Of a stretch of DNA of 47,900 nucleotides, positions 93-47,900 are shown in pieces. The translations under genes and the position numbers were made by a program. How positions within the stretch are numbered: position 1 is the stretch's first letter; each line of letters starts with the position of its first letter. The DNA is taken from positions 1 through 47,900 of the IMG/VR virus record IMGVR_UViG_3300032431_000013; one strand, given 5' to 3'. The notes beneath the pieces were generated by a model. The model was not told where the DNA came from, did not search any database, and was given only the letters and a program-made list of their open reading frames with translations. This DNA comes from a virus.

Positions 93-139
93 GAGTTGAG
101 TATACAGGTCTAGAGAGGCACTGCAATAGACCTGTATAC
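93..139 (-). promoter_or_regulatory. Promoter inside a 13-bp inverted repeat
   Basis: On the minus strand, TTGCAG (126-121), 16 bases, then TATACT (104-99), six bases, then ATG at 92. The -10 lies inside a perfect 13-bp inverted repeat, GTATACAGGTCTA (100-112) and TAGACCTGTATAC (127-139), separated by 14 bases. A dimeric regulator could bind there and cover the promoter. The element contains TCTAGA, as do the promoters near the right end. Confidence 0.6.
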
Positions 140-37425: not shown

Positions 37426-37427
37426 GG

Positions 37428-37509
37428 TGAAACGTGCTGGATTCGAACCAGCGAGGCATTAAACGATTGGTTTACAGCCAACCCCCTTCGACCGCTCGGG
37501 CAACGTTCC
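37428..37509 (-). tRNA. tRNA-Tyr (anticodon GTA)
   Basis: On the minus strand the acceptor GGAACGT (37509-37503) pairs with ACGTTTC (37435-37429), with one G-U. The D arm is CCC...GGG with GAGCGGTCGAA. The anticodon stem GTTGG/CCAAT encloses CTGTAAA, anticodon GTA. A long variable arm and the T arm GCTGG-TTCGAAT-CCAGC follow. The long variable arm is expected for bacterial tRNA-Tyr. Only CC of the CCA end is encoded, so the host must complete it. It lies inside the leftward recombination operon. Confidence 0.92.
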
Positions 37510-42415: not shown

Positions 42416-43149
42416 TGCGCGCCGATCATCAGAGCAAGTTGGTCTGCTCCATTTTGAGTTGGGGTGTGGCCTGTAGCGAGTTCTAAGCGCGGTGGCTGGT
42501 CATTGATGAATCTCCGCCCACCCATCGCGTAAAGCGCTGTACGGTCAGCTAGACCCAACCATTGGGTTTCCCAAAATCGACAGTAACCGGCGCCGCTCAC
42601 AATCCGATTGTATTTGTAAAGTTGTTTCGTGAATGGAAATAGTCCAAACTTGGAGCTGACCTTGTCAACTATCATGCCATGCGGGATTGAACTTGTGGGC
42701 AAGCTCGCTATTTCATCGGGATCGGAATGCAACACAAGCGCACGTTGCCTCAAATAGGGGTGCGGTGGTGGGGCCATTTCGTCTCGATTGCAGTACACAA
42801 GGGGCTCGATCGCTACGTCGCAATTGTAGGGTACGATTGGCTCTATCGCGATTACCCTGCTTTTTTTATCGCGACAATCGAATGCATTTTTGCACCAATA
42901 GGTAGGCATCCACCGAAGAAGCGTCCACGTTTCACCATTGCGCCAAAACCACTCTTTAAAGCTTGGTAGATCAATATCTACCAAGACAAGGTCGAAAGCG
43001 CGCACTGCTATAGGGTCGGCTGTAATGTCGAACTTGGTAATTGTCGCGTCCACTTGATTGCGAACCAACGCGCGTTCAACGGAACGAAACATTACTTCAT
43101 GACCCAAACCCAAAATGTGTGGTGGGTAAAACCAGCCTACTTTGATCAT
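42412..43149 (-). CDS. Glycosyltransferase-like protein (GT-B type, tentative)
   Basis: 245 residues. The start 'VGWFYPPHILGLGHEVMFRS' recalls the 'GxGH..R' N-terminus of GT-B enzymes. 'IVSGAGYCRFWETQWLGLAD' (about 183-202) resembles the 'aGYN.f.E....g' donor-site motif of MurG-like glycosyltransferases. The middle is shorter than in full enzymes (usually about 350). It might glycosylate phage DNA, a phage protein or a host surface molecule. The call rests on two short motifs and is uncertain. Confidence 0.45.
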   Translation of the reverse strand: MIKVGWFYPPHILGLGHEVMFRSVERALVRNQVDATITKFDITADPIAVRAFDLVLVDIDLPSFKEWFWRNGETWTLLRWMPTYWCKNAFDCRDKKSRVIAIEPIVPYNCDVAIEPLVYCNRDEMAPPPHPYLRQRALVLHSDPDEIASLPTSSIPHGMIVDKVSSKFGLFPFTKQLYKYNRIVSGAGYCRFWETQWLGLADRTALYAMGGRRFINDQPPRLELATGHTPTQNGADQLALMIGAQ

Positions 43150-43331
43150 GCTAGCCTCTTTTGCAGTTGCTCAATTACCGATTGGACCAAAGTAAGCTTT
43201 CGGTTCGCACTAACTATTTCCGCGTCAAGTCTGCTAACCCGCTCTAGCTCAAATGCAATGAGTCTGATTTCGTCATGGCTTGCGCGTTGCTGCCTCATGT
43301 TGTCCCACGCTTGGGCAACTTCACGCGCCAT
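43146..43331 (-). CDS. Small coiled-coil hypothetical protein
   Basis: 61 residues from ATG 43331 (MAREVAQAWDNMRQQRASHD...), one long helix with a heptad-like end (LTLVQSVIEQLQKRLA). TAATG coupling to the lipoprotein gene upstream and ATGA coupling to the next gene support the frame. No function known. Confidence 0.55.
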   Translation of the reverse strand: MAREVAQAWDNMRQQRASHDEIRLIAFELERVSRLDAEIVSANRKLTLVQSVIEQLQKRLA

Positions 43332-43864
43332 TATTGCGTGACCTCGGCAACCCAGGCGATATCGTCTGCTGTTACTCGCGTTGCGCATGCATTACCCTCG
43401 CGCATGATCGCGGACGGGTCCCCTTCTCCCGCTGGTAGCTTGGTGTAGGTGGTCGCGAACGCCGACCCGATGGCGCTCATTGCGCTCGACTTGGCGCACT
43501 GGTAACCGGCGGCATCGTCTGCCACCCAAACGACGGCGAGGGAGTAAACAGAGCCGGTGTGCCAACCATCACCGTTTGGGTGAGACGAAAACGGGCGAAC
43601 GTGAATGAATCTAGGGTCATTCACATTGTCAACAATCGTCGTGAAAATATTCGATTGTGGAAGCGCTTCCCGCCACTCGTTTAGTGCATCCATGAAGAGT
43701 GTCATTTGTTCAGTGGTCAGATCTGGCGAAACGCCAAAGTTAATTTCGACTCCCGCGCCTACCGTGGGGTCAGTGTATCCGTCGTCTGTACCCCCTTCGA
43801 CACCCCCGCAAGCGATTGCGCAAAGTCCAAAAATCAAGGCTGAAATTGTAATGATGTTTTTCAT
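43331..43864 (-). CDS. Lipoprotein resembling an inactive matrixin-type peptidase
   Basis: 177 residues from ATG 43864. It starts with a lipoprotein signal (MKNIITISALIFGLCAIAC, lipobox AIAC with Cys at about residue 19), then an acidic linker. The mature part ends with 'GDPSAIMREGNACATRVTAD' and 'DIAWV', which recalls the 'SIMY...T.DDI' end of matrixin-like proteins. The expected HExxH zinc site is absent; the equivalent stretch reads 'IGSAFATTYTKLP'. It may be a non-catalytic membrane-bound protein, for example acting on superinfecting phages. This comparison is by eye. Confidence 0.6.
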   Translation of the reverse strand: MKNIITISALIFGLCAIACGGVEGGTDDGYTDPTVGAGVEINFGVSPDLTTEQMTLFMDALNEWREALPQSNIFTTIVDNVNDPRFIHVRPFSSHPNGDGWHTGSVYSLAVVWVADDAAGYQCAKSSAMSAIGSAFATTYTKLPAGEGDPSAIMREGNACATRVTADDIAWVAEVTQ

Positions 43865-44070
43865 GATGTTAGCTCTTTTCCAGTTTCGAATGATGTTCCC
43901 GTGTGGCGTTCCCATTGTCGCTTAATTGCGTCGGGGTGATGATTGCAAGCTCCCGAGCCCTTACGATGCGGAAACCAATATCCGTGACAATCGCACGGCG
44001 CGCCTTGTTTTTTCCGTCGCGATTCGCGCTTTCGGAGTTTTGCGGCTCGTTTTTCTGTTATCCGCCCCAC
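43861..44070 (-). CDS. Small Cys/His-rich protein, possible zinc binding
   Basis: 69 residues from GTG 44070. A very basic N-terminus (KRAAKLRKRESRRKKQ) is followed by 'CDCHGYWFPHRKGSGACNHH', with three Cys and four His that could bind zinc. It may bind nucleic acid. The GTG lies exactly six bases after a TAAGGT -10 box, so the message is probably leaderless. It overlaps the lipoprotein gene by ATGA. Confidence 0.65.
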   Translation of the reverse strand: MGRITEKRAAKLRKRESRRKKQGAPCDCHGYWFPHRKGSGACNHHPDAIKRQWERHTGTSFETGKELTS

Positions 44071-44112
44071 CTCTGTACCTTAGTCTCGTGAGTACAGAAG
44101 TCCAGAATTAAA
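44071..44112 (-). promoter_or_regulatory. Second copy of the 34-base promoter element
   Basis: Minus strand TGGACT (44104-44099), 16 bases, TAAGGT (44082-44077), six bases, GTG 44070. From 44079 to 44112 the sequence matches 2325-2358 reversed, with one or two differences. It contains GTGAGTAC (44088-44095), the complement of GTACTCAC. Confidence 0.65.
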
Positions 44113-44299
44113 TGGGGCCGTTTGGTTTATTTCGATGACTGACCCAACGGTCCAAAAGTTCGCGGATAATTTCAGCTAGAGATTCCGTCGGGTACAGCGC
44201 CCCTCTGTAGCGCTCTGACTCCTCAGGGGTGACTCTGATCTGGATTCGATCGCTGGATTTCTCGCCCCGGTCGGGTGGGCGCCCTTGTTGATTTTTCAT
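44108..44299 (-). CDS. Small ribbon-helix-helix-like protein
   Basis: 63 residues from ATG 44299. After a polar N-terminus (KNQQGRPPDRGEKSSD) comes 'RIQIRVTPEESERYRGALYP' and 'SLAEIIRELLDRWV', that is a strand followed by two helices, the pattern of ribbon-helix-helix DNA-binding proteins. It could control one of the repeated operators. GGAG lies nine bases before the ATG. Confidence 0.6.
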   Translation of the reverse strand: MKNQQGRPPDRGEKSSDRIQIRVTPEESERYRGALYPTESLAEIIRELLDRWVSHRNKPNGPI

Positions 44300-44300
44300 T

Positions 44301-44582
44301 TCAAAAACTCCAAAACAGGCTAGGTCCAACGGCGTCGAATTCGATGGCCACCATTCGAGGTTGCTCAAAACCGTGCGCGCTTGACTGGTCTTCTACCAAC
44401 CTCCACACGAATTCATGGTTCACCCGACTGATCACGGTGACCTCTCTACCCTCTGTTTCGATCGATTCCTGCATAATTGCTCCGTCCTGGTAATCAAACC
44501 GGATTAAAGGCCGAATTGCTATTTTTGCCAAATTTGCAAATGTTTCCAAACTAGCGTTCATCCGTCCAGTGATAGGGTTCAT
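44301..44582 (-). CDS. Hypothetical protein
   Basis: 93 residues from ATG 44582 (MNPITGRMNASLETFANLAK...), with beta-like segments 'REVTVISRVNHEFVWRLVED'. No family recognised. The ATG overlaps the stop of the upstream gene (ATGA), which decides the start over 44618. Confidence 0.6.
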   Translation of the reverse strand: MNPITGRMNASLETFANLAKIAIRPLIRFDYQDGAIMQESIETEGREVTVISRVNHEFVWRLVEDQSSAHGFEQPRMVAIEFDAVGPSLFWSF

Positions 44583-44818
44583 TGCTGGACTCCAAAAGCG
44601 TACGATAATGGCAGCCAATGTGTGATGGCGTCGTGCTTAATTGTGCAGGTAAAAGGGGAGTTTATATAGTAGCAGCCGCCGTGCGAATCGGCGTCCCATC
44701 TGAGGATTTGCCAACTCTCACAACCAACCGAAAAAATGACGTATGCGAAACAGTCGTCTTCGGGGCCGTTGACGCCCCAGGGCATCGGCTCGGTTTTTAT
44801 CTCGAATTGTTCATTCAT
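44579..44818 (-). CDS. Hypothetical protein
   Basis: 79 residues, rich in aromatic residues (FAYVIFSVGCESWQILRWDA, then GGCYYINSPFTC), probably a small beta domain. No family recognised. It is the first gene of the leftward accessory operon. Upstream DNA contains GTACTCAC (44866-44873) and GAGTACAGAAGT (44838-44849), parts of the repeated promoter element. Confidence 0.6.
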   Translation of the reverse strand: MNEQFEIKTEPMPWGVNGPEDDCFAYVIFSVGCESWQILRWDADSHGGCYYINSPFTCTIKHDAITHWLPLSYAFGVQQ

Positions 44819-44932
44819 CTTGATTTAGAAACTAGTAGAGTACAGAAGTGTGCGCTAGCTAAATCGTACTCACCGAAGTCGAATTTTAGAAATCAAAATT
44901 AACGCGAATGATACGCATCTTCATTACAGTGG
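44819..44932 (-). promoter_or_regulatory. Intergenic region with GTACTCAC-type boxes
   Basis: No gene is seen. It contains GAGTACAGAAGT (44838-44849) and GTACTCAC (44866-44873), motifs also present in the 34-base element at 2325 and 44079 and near 657 and 962. A leftward promoter for the 44818 gene is expected here, but the -10 and -35 are not clear. Confidence 0.4.
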
Positions 44933-44955
44933 CAAAGGAAAGGGCCCGAAGGCCC
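44933..44955 (-). terminator. UUCG terminator after the 44970-45170 gene
   Basis: Minus strand GGGCC (44955-44951), TTCG, GGCCC (44946-44942), then TTTCCTTT. The same hairpin core ends the genes at 47201 and 47496. Confidence 0.7.
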
Positions 44956-44969
44956 CCTCTTGTCTCAGC

Positions 44970-45170
44970 TCATGCAGCGTGCCCACCCGATGTGCCTACA
45001 CAGCCGGTCCAAGCTACCACTGTGAGGGGGGCGCCCAGCTTGCGGCTCATGGCGGCGACCTTGGCCTGGGCTGCCTCTTCCGTGCGGCACTTGCCGTAGT
45101 GATTCGTGTTGTCGTCAAGGCGGACGATGGCAAACCAGATGACTGTGGAGGTCTTTGCTTCGTTGTTCAC
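44970..45170 (-). CDS. Small hypothetical protein in a one-gene cassette
   Basis: 66 residues from GTG 45170 (VNNEAKTSTVIWFAIVRLDD...), an alpha/beta pattern without known family. The start is chosen because TATAAT (45182-45177) lies exactly six bases upstream; a frame opening at GTG 45185 would lie upstream of the transcription start. The gene has its own operator, promoter and terminator. Confidence 0.62.
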   Translation of the reverse strand: MNNEAKTSTVIWFAIVRLDDNTNHYGKCRTEEAAQAKVAAMSRKLGAPLTVVAWTGCVGTSGGHAA

Positions 45171-45243
45171 CCCTTGATTATACACGTCTAGAGCAGGGCT
45201 GCCAGGACTAAATGAAGGTCTAGTGCATTCAGGCCAACGGGCC
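45171..45243 (-). promoter_or_regulatory. Operator-promoter cassette before 45170
   Basis: Minus strand, in order: hairpin GGCC-CGTT-GGCC (45243-45232), operator CTGAATG-N11-CATTTAG (45232-45208), -35 CTGGCA (45205-45200), 17 bases, -10 TATAAT (45182-45177), six bases, GTG. This is one of four cassettes of this type. Confidence 0.75.
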
Positions 45244-45253
45244 GGTGATACTG

Positions 45254-45541
45254 CTATCCATTCGCGTTATTCAAGATTCCGCGCAACCGCTCCACCTTGC
45301 GAGCCAACACTCGCCAAGCGTCCGGATTCATCGCGCCGAGCACGACCAGAAAAACGTCGGCCGCTTCTTCGTCGACCTCAGCTTCCGTTCCTCGGCCCCG
45401 CTCACGTCGAGCAATTGCGGTAATCAGTTCGCCGCATTCCTCAGTGATCATATTGTCCTGTCCGACGTCGCCGAAAACCGATCGCGCTTTTTGCGCAAGG
45501 TCGAAGGCTTGAATAACCAAATCTATGTTTAATGTAATCAT
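45254..45541 (-). CDS. MazG-like nucleotide pyrophosphohydrolase
   Basis: 95 residues, mostly helical. 'ITEECGELITAIARR' (32-46) and 'EVDEEAADVFLVV' (55-67) give the EExxE...ExxD metal-binding pattern of MazG/all-alpha NTP pyrophosphatases. Such phage enzymes remove particular nucleotides or lower alarmone-type signals during infection. It overlaps the upstream gene by ATGA. Length is that of single-domain phage members. Confidence 0.8.
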   Translation of the reverse strand: MITLNIDLVIQAFDLAQKARSVFGDVGQDNMITEECGELITAIARRERGRGTEAEVDEEAADVFLVVLGAMNPDAWRVLARKVERLRGILNNANG

Positions 45542-45753
45542 CGGCCGGCCAGCCGGTCTAGACGAGGGAAGTCGGCCCGAAGGTGACGTAGGGCCTCTAG
45601 GCTAATGCCGAGATCGGCGGCTGCGGCAGTGAGCGTTGGTCGAAGGCGCATTGCATCGGCTATCAGGCGCTCGGCATTATTTTCAAGTGACTGAAACGGC
45701 CCCGCAAGCGCGGCGCGTAGGACATTGATCGGGGCGGAGGAGTGGGGTCTCAC
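45538..45753 (-). CDS. Small helical protein, HTH-like
   Basis: 71 residues from GTG 45753. 'RPTLTAAAADLGISLEALRH' has the look of a helix-turn-helix (ALA...LGIS...LR). It may bind DNA. The GTG overlaps the upstream stop (GTGA), supporting the start. No larger family is recognised. Confidence 0.6.
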   Translation of the reverse strand: MRPHSSAPINVLRAALAGPFQSLENNAERLIADAMRLRPTLTAAAADLGISLEALRHLRADFPRLDRLAGR

Positions 45754-45953
45754 GATGCCACCCCGAACTCTCGCGACAGCTCGGCGTCGGAATACGTTGG
45801 GTCGCCTTCGTGTAGGCCGTGCGAAAACATGCAGTACTCCTGCCCTCGAAAGTCGCGAGGCCAGACACCGGCGCAGCCCAGGCGCTCGATCTGCGCCGGC
45901 GTAAGATCGACGGTTGCGCCGCTGGGTGACTGATAGGTGATGACTTGGTTCAT
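45750..45953 (-). CDS. Small hypothetical protein
   Basis: 67 residues from ATG 45953. It opens with two strands and a short helix (ITYQSPSGATVDLTPAQIER), then has 'GAGVWPRDFRGQEYCMFSHG'-like aromatic content (residues about 36-54) and a charged end. No family recognised. The gene starts right after the repeated hairpin at 45954-45988. Confidence 0.6.
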   Translation of the reverse strand: MNQVITYQSPSGATVDLTPAQIERLGCAGVWPRDFRGQEYCMFSHGLHEGDPTYSDAELSREFGVAS

Positions 45954-45988
45954 ACCGCGAAAGCCCCCAGGCTTGGTAGCGTGGGGGC
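45954..45988 (-). promoter_or_regulatory. Repeated hairpin directly before a start codon (copy 2)
   Basis: Minus strand GCCCCCA (45988-45982) pairs with TGGGGGC (45969-45963) around CGCTACCAAGCC, followed by TTTCGCGGT and ATG 45953. The copy at 366-400 has G-C at the loop-closing pair where this copy has A-T; the rest is identical. Confidence 0.65.
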
Positions 45989-46008
45989 GGGGTTGGGTGG
46001 GGTGGGGT

Positions 46009-46224
46009 TCAGCCGGCCAGCTCGACGAAGTATGCATCCCAAGCCGCGGCAGCTTCACTTTCAGCCCCAACCAACTCGCCTCGCGCGCTGCATGCCGTCT
46101 CGGCATCCGCGTGGTTCCGCGTCTCGGACACCGAGATTTGCGCGCCCACAAGAGCCTCACGGCTGCGGATGAGGCGAGCCGTTGCGGGAGAGAATGCGAT
46201 TCCGTCGATAATTACGTTTTTCAT
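46009..46224 (-). CDS. Small protein of the 'IDGIxFSPxTAxLI' family
   Basis: 71 residues starting MKNVIIDGIAFSPATARLIR. The start matches the 46854-47075 product and, more weakly, the 683-919 product. The second half is Ala-rich helical and ends 'WDAYFVELAG'. Function unknown. The message should start near 46258 and carry a 5' stem-loop before the gene. Confidence 0.65.
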   Translation of the reverse strand: MKNVIIDGIAFSPATARLIRSREALVGAQISVSETRNHADAETACSARGELVGAESEAAAAWDAYFVELAG

Positions 46225-46320
46225 GATTTTGCCTTTTCTCTGAGGCTCTCTGCCTCACCCCTTGATTATACACGTCTAGAGCAGGGCTGCCAGAACTAAA
46301 TGAGGCTCTAGAGCATTTAG
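46225..46320 (-). promoter_or_regulatory. Operator-promoter cassette with stem-loop leader before 46224
   Basis: Minus strand: operator CTAAATG-N11-CATTTAG (46320-46296), -35 CTGGCA (46293-46288), 17 bases, TATAAT (46270-46265, consensus), six bases, GTG (46258). That GTG is out of frame with the gene. The leader begins GTGAGGCAGAGAGCCTCA, a perfect 6-bp stem at the 5' end, followed by AGAGAAAAGG and ATG 46224. Confidence 0.75.
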
Positions 46321-46322
46321 TT

Positions 46323-46532
46323 TCATGGGAACCCCGCCCAGGCCCAATTGGCCCAGGCTTCGCGCTCGATTGCCAATGCTGCCTCCCAGGCCTCCCAATC
46401 GCCCTTTGCCGAGCTGCGGATGGCAGTGTTCCGAGCTAGCGACCTGGCCTCCCAAGCGTCGCGCCATGCGCCCTCTAGGCCCAATGGCTGATCAAAGCGC
46501 TGTATCCTCGCCACGATTTCTGCTGGGGTCAT
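46323..46532 (-). CDS. Small Trp/Ala-rich helical protein
   Basis: 69 residues from ATG 46532 (ATGA with the upstream gene). It contains repeated W-containing helical units: GAWRDAWEARS, GDWEAWEAALAI, EAWANWAWAG. About one residue in ten is Trp, which is unusual. It may insert into or lie on a membrane, or bind a protein groove. The stop lies two bases from the operator of the next cassette. Confidence 0.6.
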   Translation of the reverse strand: MTPAEIVARIQRFDQPLGLEGAWRDAWEARSLARNTAIRSSAKGDWEAWEAALAIEREAWANWAWAGFP

Positions 46533-46705
46533 GCTGCGGGCGGCAGTGTCAGACGGTAGGCGGCCCATGCCGATTTGACCCGTCGCTCCATTTCGTACAT
46601 CACTTGCTCGGCTTCATCGCAGAGCACATGGGCTCTCTCCACTGCCAGCTTCGCGGCCTCCTCAGCGCGGGCAGAGGCGAGCCAGGCCTTGTGTTCGTCG
46701 GTCAT
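46529..46705 (-). CDS. Small helical protein
   Basis: 58 residues from ATG 46705 (MTDEHKAWLASARAEEAAKL...), one long charged helix. ATGA overlaps at both ends place it in a four-gene operon. Similar in character to the 46702-46857 product (Ala-rich, W-containing), so they may be related. No function known. Confidence 0.55.
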   Translation of the reverse strand: MTDEHKAWLASARAEEAAKLAVERAHVLCDEAEQVMYEMERRVKSAWAAYRLTLPPAA

Positions 46706-46857
46706 CGCCTGGCCCGGCCCATAGCCAATGCCCTGGCCTCCGCATGCAATCGGCGAGTGTCCGCCTGTACCCACACGCGATGAGCCTCTTTTGCAGCCTT
46801 CGCCGCAGCCTGGGCTGTAGCCATTGCCTCTCGCCATGCCGCTTCCTCGGGGCTCAT
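46702..46857 (-). CDS. Very small Ala-rich helical protein
   Basis: 51 residues from ATG 46857 to TGA 46704-46702 (MSPEEAAWREAMATAQAAAK...), ending in a basic tail (MGRARR). ATGA overlaps with both neighbours are the main evidence that it is a gene. Probably one continuous helix. Confidence 0.55.
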   Translation of the reverse strand: MSPEEAAWREAMATAQAAAKAAKEAHRVWVQADTRRLHAEARALAMGRARR

Positions 46858-47075
46858 GACACACCTGCCGCGATCGCTACAGCCGAAACGTACTCGTGCC
46901 AGTTCTCGGACTCCTCAGGGCCGCCTGTCAGGCACAGCGCCAAGAGTGAAGCCTTCGAACACATCCCAGCTTTGAGTATGGCAACGTCAGCGATCGGGGT
47001 AATGCTATTTTCCAAAATCAGCTCCGCCGTCCTGGGCGAGAATGAGATACCATCAATATTTACGTTGTTTTTCAT
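46854..47075 (-). CDS. Small protein of the 'IDGIxFSPxTAxLI' family
   Basis: 73 residues from ATG 47075, starting MKNNVNIDGISFSPRTAELI. It is the closest relative of the 46009-46224 product at the N-terminus, and its C-terminal 'NWHEYVSAVAIAAG' resembles the end of the 683-919 product. It is the first gene of a leftward four-gene operon. Function unknown. Confidence 0.62.
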   Translation of the reverse strand: MKNNVNIDGISFSPRTAELILENSITPIADVAILKAGMCSKASLLALCLTGGPEESENWHEYVSAVAIAAGVS

Positions 47076-47107
47076 GGAGCTTTTTCTGGGGCAGTGGGCC
47101 CCCGGGT

Positions 47108-47160
47108 AGGTTAGCACGGTCTAGTACGGCACTGCAATAGAGCGCGGTATGATTTGTCAG
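47108..47160 (-). promoter_or_regulatory. Promoter-like module before 47075
   Basis: Minus strand TTGCAG (47137-47132) with a weak TAACCT (47113-47108) 18 bases on. The flanks (GGCACTGCAATAGA and GTATGATTT on the plus strand) match the module at 116-145. It lacks the CTAAATG operator and the six-base spacing. Confidence 0.4.
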
Positions 47161-47175
47161 ATGGGCCAAGCGGCC

Positions 47176-47191
47176 GGGGCCCGAAGGCCCC
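47176..47191 (-). terminator. UUCG terminator after the 47201-47389 gene
   Basis: Minus strand GGGGCC (47191-47186), TTCG, GGCCCC (47181-47176), ten bases after the gene. No clear T run follows, so termination may be partial. Confidence 0.6.
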
Positions 47192-47200
47192 CTCTCACTT

Positions 47201-47389
47201 TCAGCGAGCCGCAATCTTCTTCGCGCATTTCAGGCAGAGCACCATCCACATATTTCCGTGTACGTCTTCCTCGCTGTAGTAGGCCATCGGCGCCCCCTTG
47301 CCGCAGCACTCGCACGAGTGTTTGAGCATGCGGCCGGACGAGTCGCGAAGGTCGGAGCGGAGGATTTGGGAGTCGGTTGCGGTCTTCAT
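47201..47389 (-). CDS. Small zinc-ribbon-like protein in a one-gene cassette
   Basis: 62 residues. 'SCECCGKGAPMAYYSEEDVH' and 'MVLCLKCAKKIAAR' provide two CxxC pairs, a likely zinc ribbon. ATG 47389 lies exactly six bases after TATACT, so the message should be leaderless. The gene has its own operator, promoter and terminator. It could modulate a host polymerase or bind nucleic acid; this is inference. Confidence 0.68.
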   Translation of the reverse strand: MKTATDSQILRSDLRDSSGRMLKHSCECCGKGAPMAYYSEEDVHGNMWMVLCLKCAKKIAAR

Positions 47390-47462
47390 GAGTTGAGTAT
47401 ACAGGTCTAGAGAGGGAGTGCCAGGACTAAATGTACTAGAGCGTCATTCAGGCCAACGGGCC
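47390..47462 (-). promoter_or_regulatory. Operator-promoter cassette before 47389
   Basis: Minus strand: hairpin GGCC-CGTT-GGCC (47462-47451), operator CTGAATG-N11-CATTTAG (47451-47427), -35 CTGGCA (47424-47419), 17 bases, -10 TATACT (47401-47396), six bases, ATG. Confidence 0.78.
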
Positions 47463-47473
47463 GGGTTGACCAA

Positions 47474-47487
47474 GGGCCCGAAGGCCC
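47474..47487 (-). terminator. UUCG terminator after the 47496-47684 gene
   Basis: Minus strand GGGCC (47487-47483), TTCG, GGCCC (47478-47474), then TTGGTC, starting nine bases after the gene. No long T run. Confidence 0.6.
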
Positions 47488-47495
47488 CCGTGGTC

Positions 47496-47684
47496 TCAGG
47501 TGGGGTCGTCGGAGCTGCCAGCCTCGAAGTCGCCTGCCCACCATGCGTCTGCAATGTGGCTGGGAACGTCGGCCTCAGCCTTGACCTGCTCCAATGTGGG
47601 CACTCGGCCGAGGTTGCTCATGATGCCCCAGCAAGTCGTCTCAAGCTCGTTCATCTGCTTCTTCGTGATTCGCGTCGTCTTCAT
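47496..47684 (-). CDS. Small helical protein in a one-gene cassette
   Basis: 62 residues (MKTTRITKKQMNELETTCWG...), with 'LGRVPTLEQVKAEADVPSHI' in the middle, suggestive of a helix-turn-helix, and an acidic tail (SSDDPT). ATG 47684 lies six bases after TATACT. The longer frame to 47882 crosses its own promoter and is rejected. Function unknown. Confidence 0.62.
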   Translation of the reverse strand: MKTTRITKKQMNELETTCWGIMSNLGRVPTLEQVKAEADVPSHIADAWWAGDFEAGSSDDPT

Positions 47685-47757
47685 GAGTTGAGTATACAGG
47701 TCTAGAAAGGGAGTGCCAGGACTAAATGAAGGTCTAGAGCATTTAGGCCCACGGGCC
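47685..47757 (-). promoter_or_regulatory. Operator-promoter cassette before 47684
   Basis: Minus strand: hairpin GGCC-CGTG-GGCC (47757-47746), operator CTAAATG-N11-CATTTAG (47746-47722), -35 CTGGCA (47719-47714), 17 bases, -10 TATACT (47696-47691), six bases, ATG. It is nearly identical to the cassette before 47389. Confidence 0.8.
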
Positions 47758-47760
47758 GGG

Positions 47761-47900
47761 TTACCCCATCGCAACCGTTGCAATGTCGGAGCGATACAGA
47801 TTGCAGCCAGCTGTGTCTTCGACCGTGGCCGTTGCGTGATTCCGCATGCGGGCTGCAAGTATGTTCGACGCCGACATTGCAACTGAGATTTCCTTGCGAA
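47761..47900 (-). CDS. Partial small protein, 5' end outside window
   Basis: The frame is open from the right edge to TAA (47763-47761) and encodes at least 45 residues (...RKEISVAMSASNILAARMRN...). 'MRNHATATVEDTAG' vaguely recalls 'TRNHADAETACSA' of the 46009-46224 product. The stop is followed by the hairpin of the next cassette, as expected for a gene end. If the map is circular this may be the C-terminus of the gene starting at 92. Confidence 0.5.
   Translation of the reverse strand, partial: RKEISVAMSASNILAARMRNHATATVEDTAGCNLYRSDIATVAMG

Follow-up and report, generated by a model that had tools for sequence, protein, structure and literature searches.

A palindromic element repeated beside four promoters

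We analysed IMG/VR virus record IMGVR_UViG_3300032431_000013, positions 1 to 47,900 (47.9 kb; this whole stretch is called the window), which by its gene content looks like a tailed phage. At the right end of the record, within a minus-strand series of small genes, a 25-bp palindrome is found upstream of four promoters, for which it is probably a shared control site. The four units that contain it are referred to as W1 (45208), W2 (46296), W3 (47427) and W4 (47722), all on the minus strand (Table 1).

A sequence-only reading of this DNA had reported the four palindromes, each two bases from a promoter, and both observations hold. The palindromes are exact at the positions given, with the form CTRAATG-N11-CATTTAG, and CTGGCA-N17-TATAMT lies 2 bp from the palindrome in 4/4 units. 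The whole 47.9-kb record contains no further palindrome, either exact or with one mismatch, and exactly four copies of the promoter motif at zero mismatches, all on the minus strand. Across 300 first-order Markov windows taken together, 0 exact palindromes and 1 exact promoter occurred; the recurrence of the same element at several promoters of one phage exceeds chance. Each palindrome sits inside a 72-nt repeat (approximately 70 bp) with copies 78-86% identical, so the four sites are not independent.

The flanking hairpins were also found as described, with GGCC-N4-GGCC 5' of units W1, W3 and W4 and GGGCC-TTCG-GGCCC 3' of the genes of the same three units, W2 having neither. The description of a one-gene expression cassette fits only three of the four units, because W2 precedes several open reading frames and lacks the hairpin. 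Morons are phage accessory genes with their own promoter and terminator, and W1, W3 and W4 are of this type in having their own promoter and a terminator-like hairpin, the hairpins being without a long T run. The CTAG said to lie in the centre of the palindrome is present within the N11 but off-centre, at positions 10-13 (sense strand) in W1, W2 and W4 and at 13-16 in W3, where it is shifted because the W3 centre is reversed. The promoter spacer of all four units holds a second CTAGAC. CTAG is not rare in this DNA (173 observed against 150 expected), and the idea that its rarity makes it telling was dropped. A sigma54 promoter (TGGCAC-N5-TTGCW) was likewise rejected, since the -12 GC is absent.

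Table 1. Coordinates of the palindrome-promoter units and associated features in the window (-, minus strand)
Feature	Position	Strand	Basis
W1 site CTGAATG-CACTAGACCTT-CATTTAG, 25-bp palindrome	45208..45232	-	exact motif match
W1 promoter CTGGCA-17-TATAAT, spacer CTAGAC	45177..45205	-	exact motif match
W1 gene, GTG start 6 nt past the -10 hexamer, predicted leaderless	44970..45170	-	
W1 3' hairpin GGGCC-TTCG-GGCCC, putative terminator	44942..44955	-	
Inverted repeat GGCCCGTTGGCC adjoining W1 site	45232..45243	-	
W2 site CTAAATG-CTCTAGAGCCT-CATTTAG, 25-bp palindrome	46296..46320	-	
W2 promoter CTGGCA-17-TATAAT	46265..46293	-	
W2 first gene; leader of ~40 nt with GAGGC-N5-GCCTC hairpin	46009..46224	-	
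W3 site CTGAATG-ACGCTCTAGTA-CATTTAG, centre inverted relative to W1, W2 and W4	47427..47451	-	
W3 promoter CTGGCA-17-TATACT	47396..47424	-	
W3 gene, 62 amino acids, CxxC pairs, predicted leaderless	47201..47389	-	
W3 3' hairpin GGGCC-TTCG-GGCCC	47177..47190	-	
Inverted repeat GGCCCGTTGGCC adjoining W3 site	47451..47462	-	
W4 site CTAAATG-CTCTAGACCTT-CATTTAG, 25-bp palindrome	47722..47746	-	
W4 promoter CTGGCA-17-TATACT	47691..47719	-	
W4 gene, 62 amino acids, predicted leaderless	47496..47684	-	
W4 3' hairpin GGGCC-TTCG-GGCCC	47474..47487	-	
Inverted repeat GGCCCGTGGGCC adjoining W4 site	47746..47757	-	
W5 promoter ATTGCA-17-TATACT, spacer CTAGACC, ATG 6 nt past the -10 hexamer, without 25-bp site	99..127	-	
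Ribbon-helix-helix protein, 63 amino acids, candidate regulator	44108..44299	-	

The units in relatives and the exchange of cassettes

A set of 2.9 million viral contigs (viral_contigs) was scanned with the palindrome, with its arm plus promoter, with the W4 gene product and with the ribbon-helix-helix (RHH) family of the candidate regulator discussed below. These scans converged on two contigs, L155 (IMGVR_UViG_3300020219_000094, also L110) and L156 (IMGVR_UViG_3300020180_000153), the few other matches being judged chance. Their five units, L155a, L155b, L156a, L156b and L156c, bring the total to nine. Homologues of the W4 gene occur in L155 (92% at the amino-acid level) and L156 (85%), each behind the same palindrome and promoter. 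Between the window and L155 the W4 cassette is 87% identical at the DNA level over 290 bp, a match that takes in the hairpins at both ends, the upstream one and the terminator-like one, and stops there; the remaining blocks common to the window and these contigs are gene- or cassette-sized. The repeated promoter-gene-terminator cassette is real and is conserved in two other contigs, while the shared regulator proposed along with it is something that we infer.

The virion genes of L155 and L156 encode a contractile tail and a different terminase and head proteins, with no similarity to those of the window; their tail sheath has distant relatives in Thermus, Meiothermus and Myxococcus phages. 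The three contigs therefore represent at least two virion types. The same cassettes stand beside unrelated virion genes, so they move between phage types, and the W4 cassette does so as a unit between otherwise unrelated phages.

Conservation of the site relative to the promoter in relatives, a check proposed in the sequence-only reading, gave a mixed outcome: all five of the relatives' units keep the palindrome, two of them with CTATCAG as one arm, but related core promoters without it lie inside the window, at about 99-127 (W5) and 47120-47138. Among 17 phages with a related primase, neither the palindrome nor the RHH protein was found, one of the 17 having a single palindrome with one mismatch.

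Several further matches were set aside. CTAAATG-N11-CATTTAG occurs in at least 119 stretches of viral_contigs, and among the matches listed the promoter adjoins only that in L110, i.e. L155; several of the others listed resemble Fur boxes or coding sequence. Two matches to the arm-plus--35 pattern (L147 and L148) are low-GC, lack the left arm and were taken as chance, and one contig (L150) has the palindrome with no adjoining promoter. A string of arm, -35 and CTAGAC gave one match in 84,980 species genomes, in Proteus; that genome has no exact 25-mer and the match was attributed to chance. Patterns made of the core promoter only returned nothing useful, blastn of the cassette region against phage and plasmid records gave no match, and neither did tblastn of the W4 gene and RHH protein against phages.

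Architecture of the site

In the nine units of the three contigs the promoter-proximal arm, CATTTAG, never varies, and its distance from the -35 is always exactly 2 bp. The element therefore has a constant place with respect to the promoter and is retained in the relatives. Its distal arm reads CTAAATG or CTGAATG, except in L155a and L156c, where it is degraded to CTATCAG. Arms and centres were compared over eight units, L156b being identical to L155b over the stretch read. W3 and L155b/L156b have the 11-bp centre in reverse, which the sequence-only reading had not noted: it matches the others at 7-9 of 11 positions as the reverse complement and at 0-2 in the forward direction, and the arms and promoter of these units keep their normal orientation. 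Because the centre flips and the arms and promoter do not, recognition seems to lie in the arms and not in the centre. The centre is tolerated in either orientation, as expected for a symmetric dimer reading the arms; its inversion plausibly arose when replication slipped across a small hairpin. The folding energy of the stem as DNA is weak, at 0 to -2.6 kcal/mol, which speaks against a purely structural role of the palindrome.

Two units bear on how the parts belong together. The likeness of W2 to the other units starts at the palindrome, with nothing obvious shared further upstream, so site and promoter form one module. W5, which keeps the promoter and start without the site, indicates that the promoter can exist without the palindrome. 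A perfect 13-bp inverted repeat, GTATACAGGTCTA-N14-TAGACCTGTATAC, overlaps the W5 promoter at 92-140.

Predicted leaderless starts

A feature absent from the earlier reading is the distance from the -10 hexamer to the start codon, which is exactly 6 nt in W1, W3, W4, L155a and L156c, and by reading also in W5. Given standard sigma70 geometry, this spacing places the beginning of the transcript at the start codon, and the mRNAs of the first five units are predicted to be leaderless. This geometry applies to three of the window's four units and to two or three of those in the relatives; L156a has the same 6-nt spacing to a GTG, but its likely gene begins further on. Leaders that contain a GAGGC hairpin and a ribosome-binding site precede the genes of W2, L155b and L156b. 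A common leader, GGGTGAGGCAGAGAGC(C/T)TCnGAGAAAAAGG, with a small hairpin was observed 5' of several unrelated small genes, at 46227-46261 and 605-642 in the window and at 4446-4480 in L155.

A ribbon-helix-helix protein as candidate regulator

The products of 44108, 42161 and 39347 had been named for DNA-binding tests on the site. Homologues of the 44108 protein occur in both palindrome-bearing contigs, two in L155 and one in L156, at 39-47% identity, and none was found there for 42161 or 39347. As the sole one of the three with a homologue in both relatives, 44108 is the best candidate. The RHH family is thereby found in 2/2 palindrome-bearing contigs and in 0/17 of the primase-related records, and the scan of viral_contigs for it returned only L155 and L156. 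A profile of the four RHH proteins matches ParD (PDB 5ceg, E 1.4e-4) and ParG (PDB 1p94, E 0.0098) over the strand and both helices, which supports the assignment to this fold. No Pfam RHH family scored above cut-off, and a weak ParG match was seen for one homologue only (E 0.14). The RHH gene of L155 and L156 lies just upstream of the palindrome cluster, with an HNH gene between. RHH proteins of phages and plasmids are mostly repressors; we found no paper on RHH-controlled early phage promoters in the open-access full-text literature.

Gene surroundings

One side of the record carries genes for a DNA polymerase, primase, helicase, Cas4-like nuclease and Sak4-like protein, and the opposite side those for the terminase, portal, major head and long tape measure proteins. 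The terminase shares approximately 50-55% identity with its counterparts in Halfdan and Paracoccus phage vB_PmaS-R3, among other phages. The left end (1-950) has further minus-strand small genes, one with the same promoter type. Minus-strand small genes and this promoter type are thus present at both ends, 1-950 and 43000-47900, and on that basis the linear record may be a cut of a circular or permuted genome in which its two ends meet. Position, strand and promoter type suggest that the small genes are early genes.

A second promoter-like block, TTCTGGACTTCTGTACTCACGAGACTAAG, is common to two distant places, 44095 (-) and 2340 (+), and GTACTCAC occurs five times in all (657, 962, 2340, 44866 and 44095), mostly between small genes; the two possibly mark a second regulated promoter class. 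Between W2 and W1, 45254-45541 encodes a MazG-like nucleotide pyrophosphohydrolase domain (Pfam PF03819, E 2.3e-5), and 43331-43915 encodes a small lipoprotein-like protein with a signal peptide and a lipobox-like cysteine (LCAIACGG). A tRNA-Tyr (GTA) gene lies in the replication region at 37426-37509; this tRNA was the sole Rfam match in the window, with no family over the cassette region.

Interpretation and alternatives

The reading that we prefer, with a confidence somewhat short of even, takes the 25-bp element as an operator at which a dimeric phage protein, probably the RHH protein 44108, tunes or shuts off early promoters. The operator would occupy approximately -62 to -38 of promoters that are strong and of the sigma70 type, and the genes under them would be small accessory genes expressed early; three of the four units in the window would be single-gene cassettes with leaderless mRNAs. 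The regulator, encoded by the phage and most likely 44108, would bind the two 7-bp arms as a dimer and thereby tune or shut off all these promoters jointly. A broader version, which we consider doubtful, holds that the cassettes follow a plug-in format common to unrelated phages: palindromic operator, strong promoter, leaderless single gene and hairpin would all stand under one co-carried, trans-acting RHH regulator, and newly acquired genes would at once be on phage timing.

A number of observations weigh against an RHH-bound operator. The palindrome lies clear of the core promoter, an unusual arrangement for a single repressor site, and its distal arm is degraded in L155a and L156c. Variation in the centre is about as great as in the promoter, so conservation of the element partly reflects common descent. 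No operator was seen near the RHH gene, and RHH repressors usually autoregulate. The AlphaFold single-chain model of 44108 is poor, with a predicted local distance difference test score (pLDDT) of 64, its two helices being rightly placed, and a Foldseek search with this low-confidence model gave no match; the strand of the fold arises only on dimerisation. Co-occurrence of site and RHH protein is weak proof, because accessory genes travel together and the relatives are fragments of 18 kb; it is confounded in that any accessory gene finds the same two contigs.

The position of the site wholly upstream of the -35 and its spaced palindrome would also suit a phage activator that binds at about -50 and recruits RNA polymerase to a sub-optimal -35, in a geometry like that of the P2 late promoters, which bear TGT-N12-ACA sites for Ogr (PMC3931495). 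CTGGCA and ATTGCA are indeed mediocre -35 hexamers. We nevertheless regard activation as unlikely: with a perfect or nearly perfect -10 and 17-bp spacing these promoters should fire unaided, W5 has the poorer -35 yet no site, and no Ogr- or Mor-like protein was recognised among the proteins scanned, a part of those of the window. Recognition by a host transcription factor or nucleoid protein, the phages sharing a kind of host, we hold to be improbable to a similar degree. Adaptation to one host would account for a site common to contigs whose virion genes are unrelated, and a host factor would explain why no operator stands beside the RHH gene, but the scan of 84,980 genomes gave only the chance Proteus match, for a string that covers this promoter type and not host regulons with others.

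Less probable still is that no regulator exists and that a promoter cassette was duplicated and passed around, leaving the palindrome as a by-product (hairpin-prone DNA, a transcript-end hairpin or a duplication scar). The entire 72-nt unit is repeated, the centre flips like a hairpin loop, W5 is in position without a site and two copies have a broken arm, all as such an origin would have it. The arms, however, match at 14/14 or 13/14 positions (CTATCAG copies excepted) where many promoter pairs fall to 16-31/40; they are better kept across diverged units than neighbouring promoter-spacer positions, their distance to the promoter is fixed in 9/9 units, and the hairpin is weak. A directional centre found in both orientations between palindromic arms, together with cassette-sized homology blocks, brought to mind a recombination site for cassette shuffling. 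This we rejected as very improbable, since no tyrosine-integrase or resolvase family matched in the window, L155 or L156, with working controls, and the order of the flanks is unchanged despite the flipped centre, which site-specific inversion would not give.

Comparison with known systems

Should the site prove to be a true operator, early genes of unknown function would make up a small regulon in a phage group without a close relative in the phage collection searched, with one small protein, 44108, singled out as the candidate regulator. It would also illustrate how phages can acquire genes that an existing circuit already controls. The predicted leaderless starts offer exact, testable transcription start sites.

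The candidate regulator shares its fold, by profile match, with the RHH repressors Arc, MetJ, ParD and ParG, whose binding sites are of other sequences than the palindrome here. Like morons, the cassettes carry small accessory genes, each with a promoter and a terminator-like hairpin of its own, and move between otherwise unrelated phages; here, in contrast, several share one upstream palindrome and predicted leaderless starts, and no integrase was recognised. In Bacillus phage SPbeta, the 15-bp SPBRE motif recurs at the promoters of some ten phage genes, whose function is mostly unknown, and is bound by MrpR; the motif was found in silico first and the repressor matched later (PMC10516654). 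The likeness lies in one short conserved element repeated at phage promoters, whereas SPBRE belongs to a temperate phage and MrpR has a tyrosine-recombinase fold; here the element is a spaced palindrome of 25 bp, there is no integrase or resolvase match and the candidate is an RHH protein. The stoperators of cluster A mycobacteriophages are also many copies of one repressor site per genome, but are asymmetric, bind a monomeric repressor and also stop elongation, unlike the palindromic, promoter-only sites of one region described here (PMC9283540). The P2 late promoters resemble our units in having a spaced inverted repeat at each of four coordinately controlled promoters; they differ in that TGT-N12-ACA serves late operons, and no Ogr homologue was recognised here among the proteins scanned (PMC3931495). 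The system described here is an addition to a known type of phage regulation, that of multi-copy operators and morons, rather than a new type; two features stand out, the predicted leaderless starts and the passage of entire operator cassettes between phages whose virion genes are unrelated.

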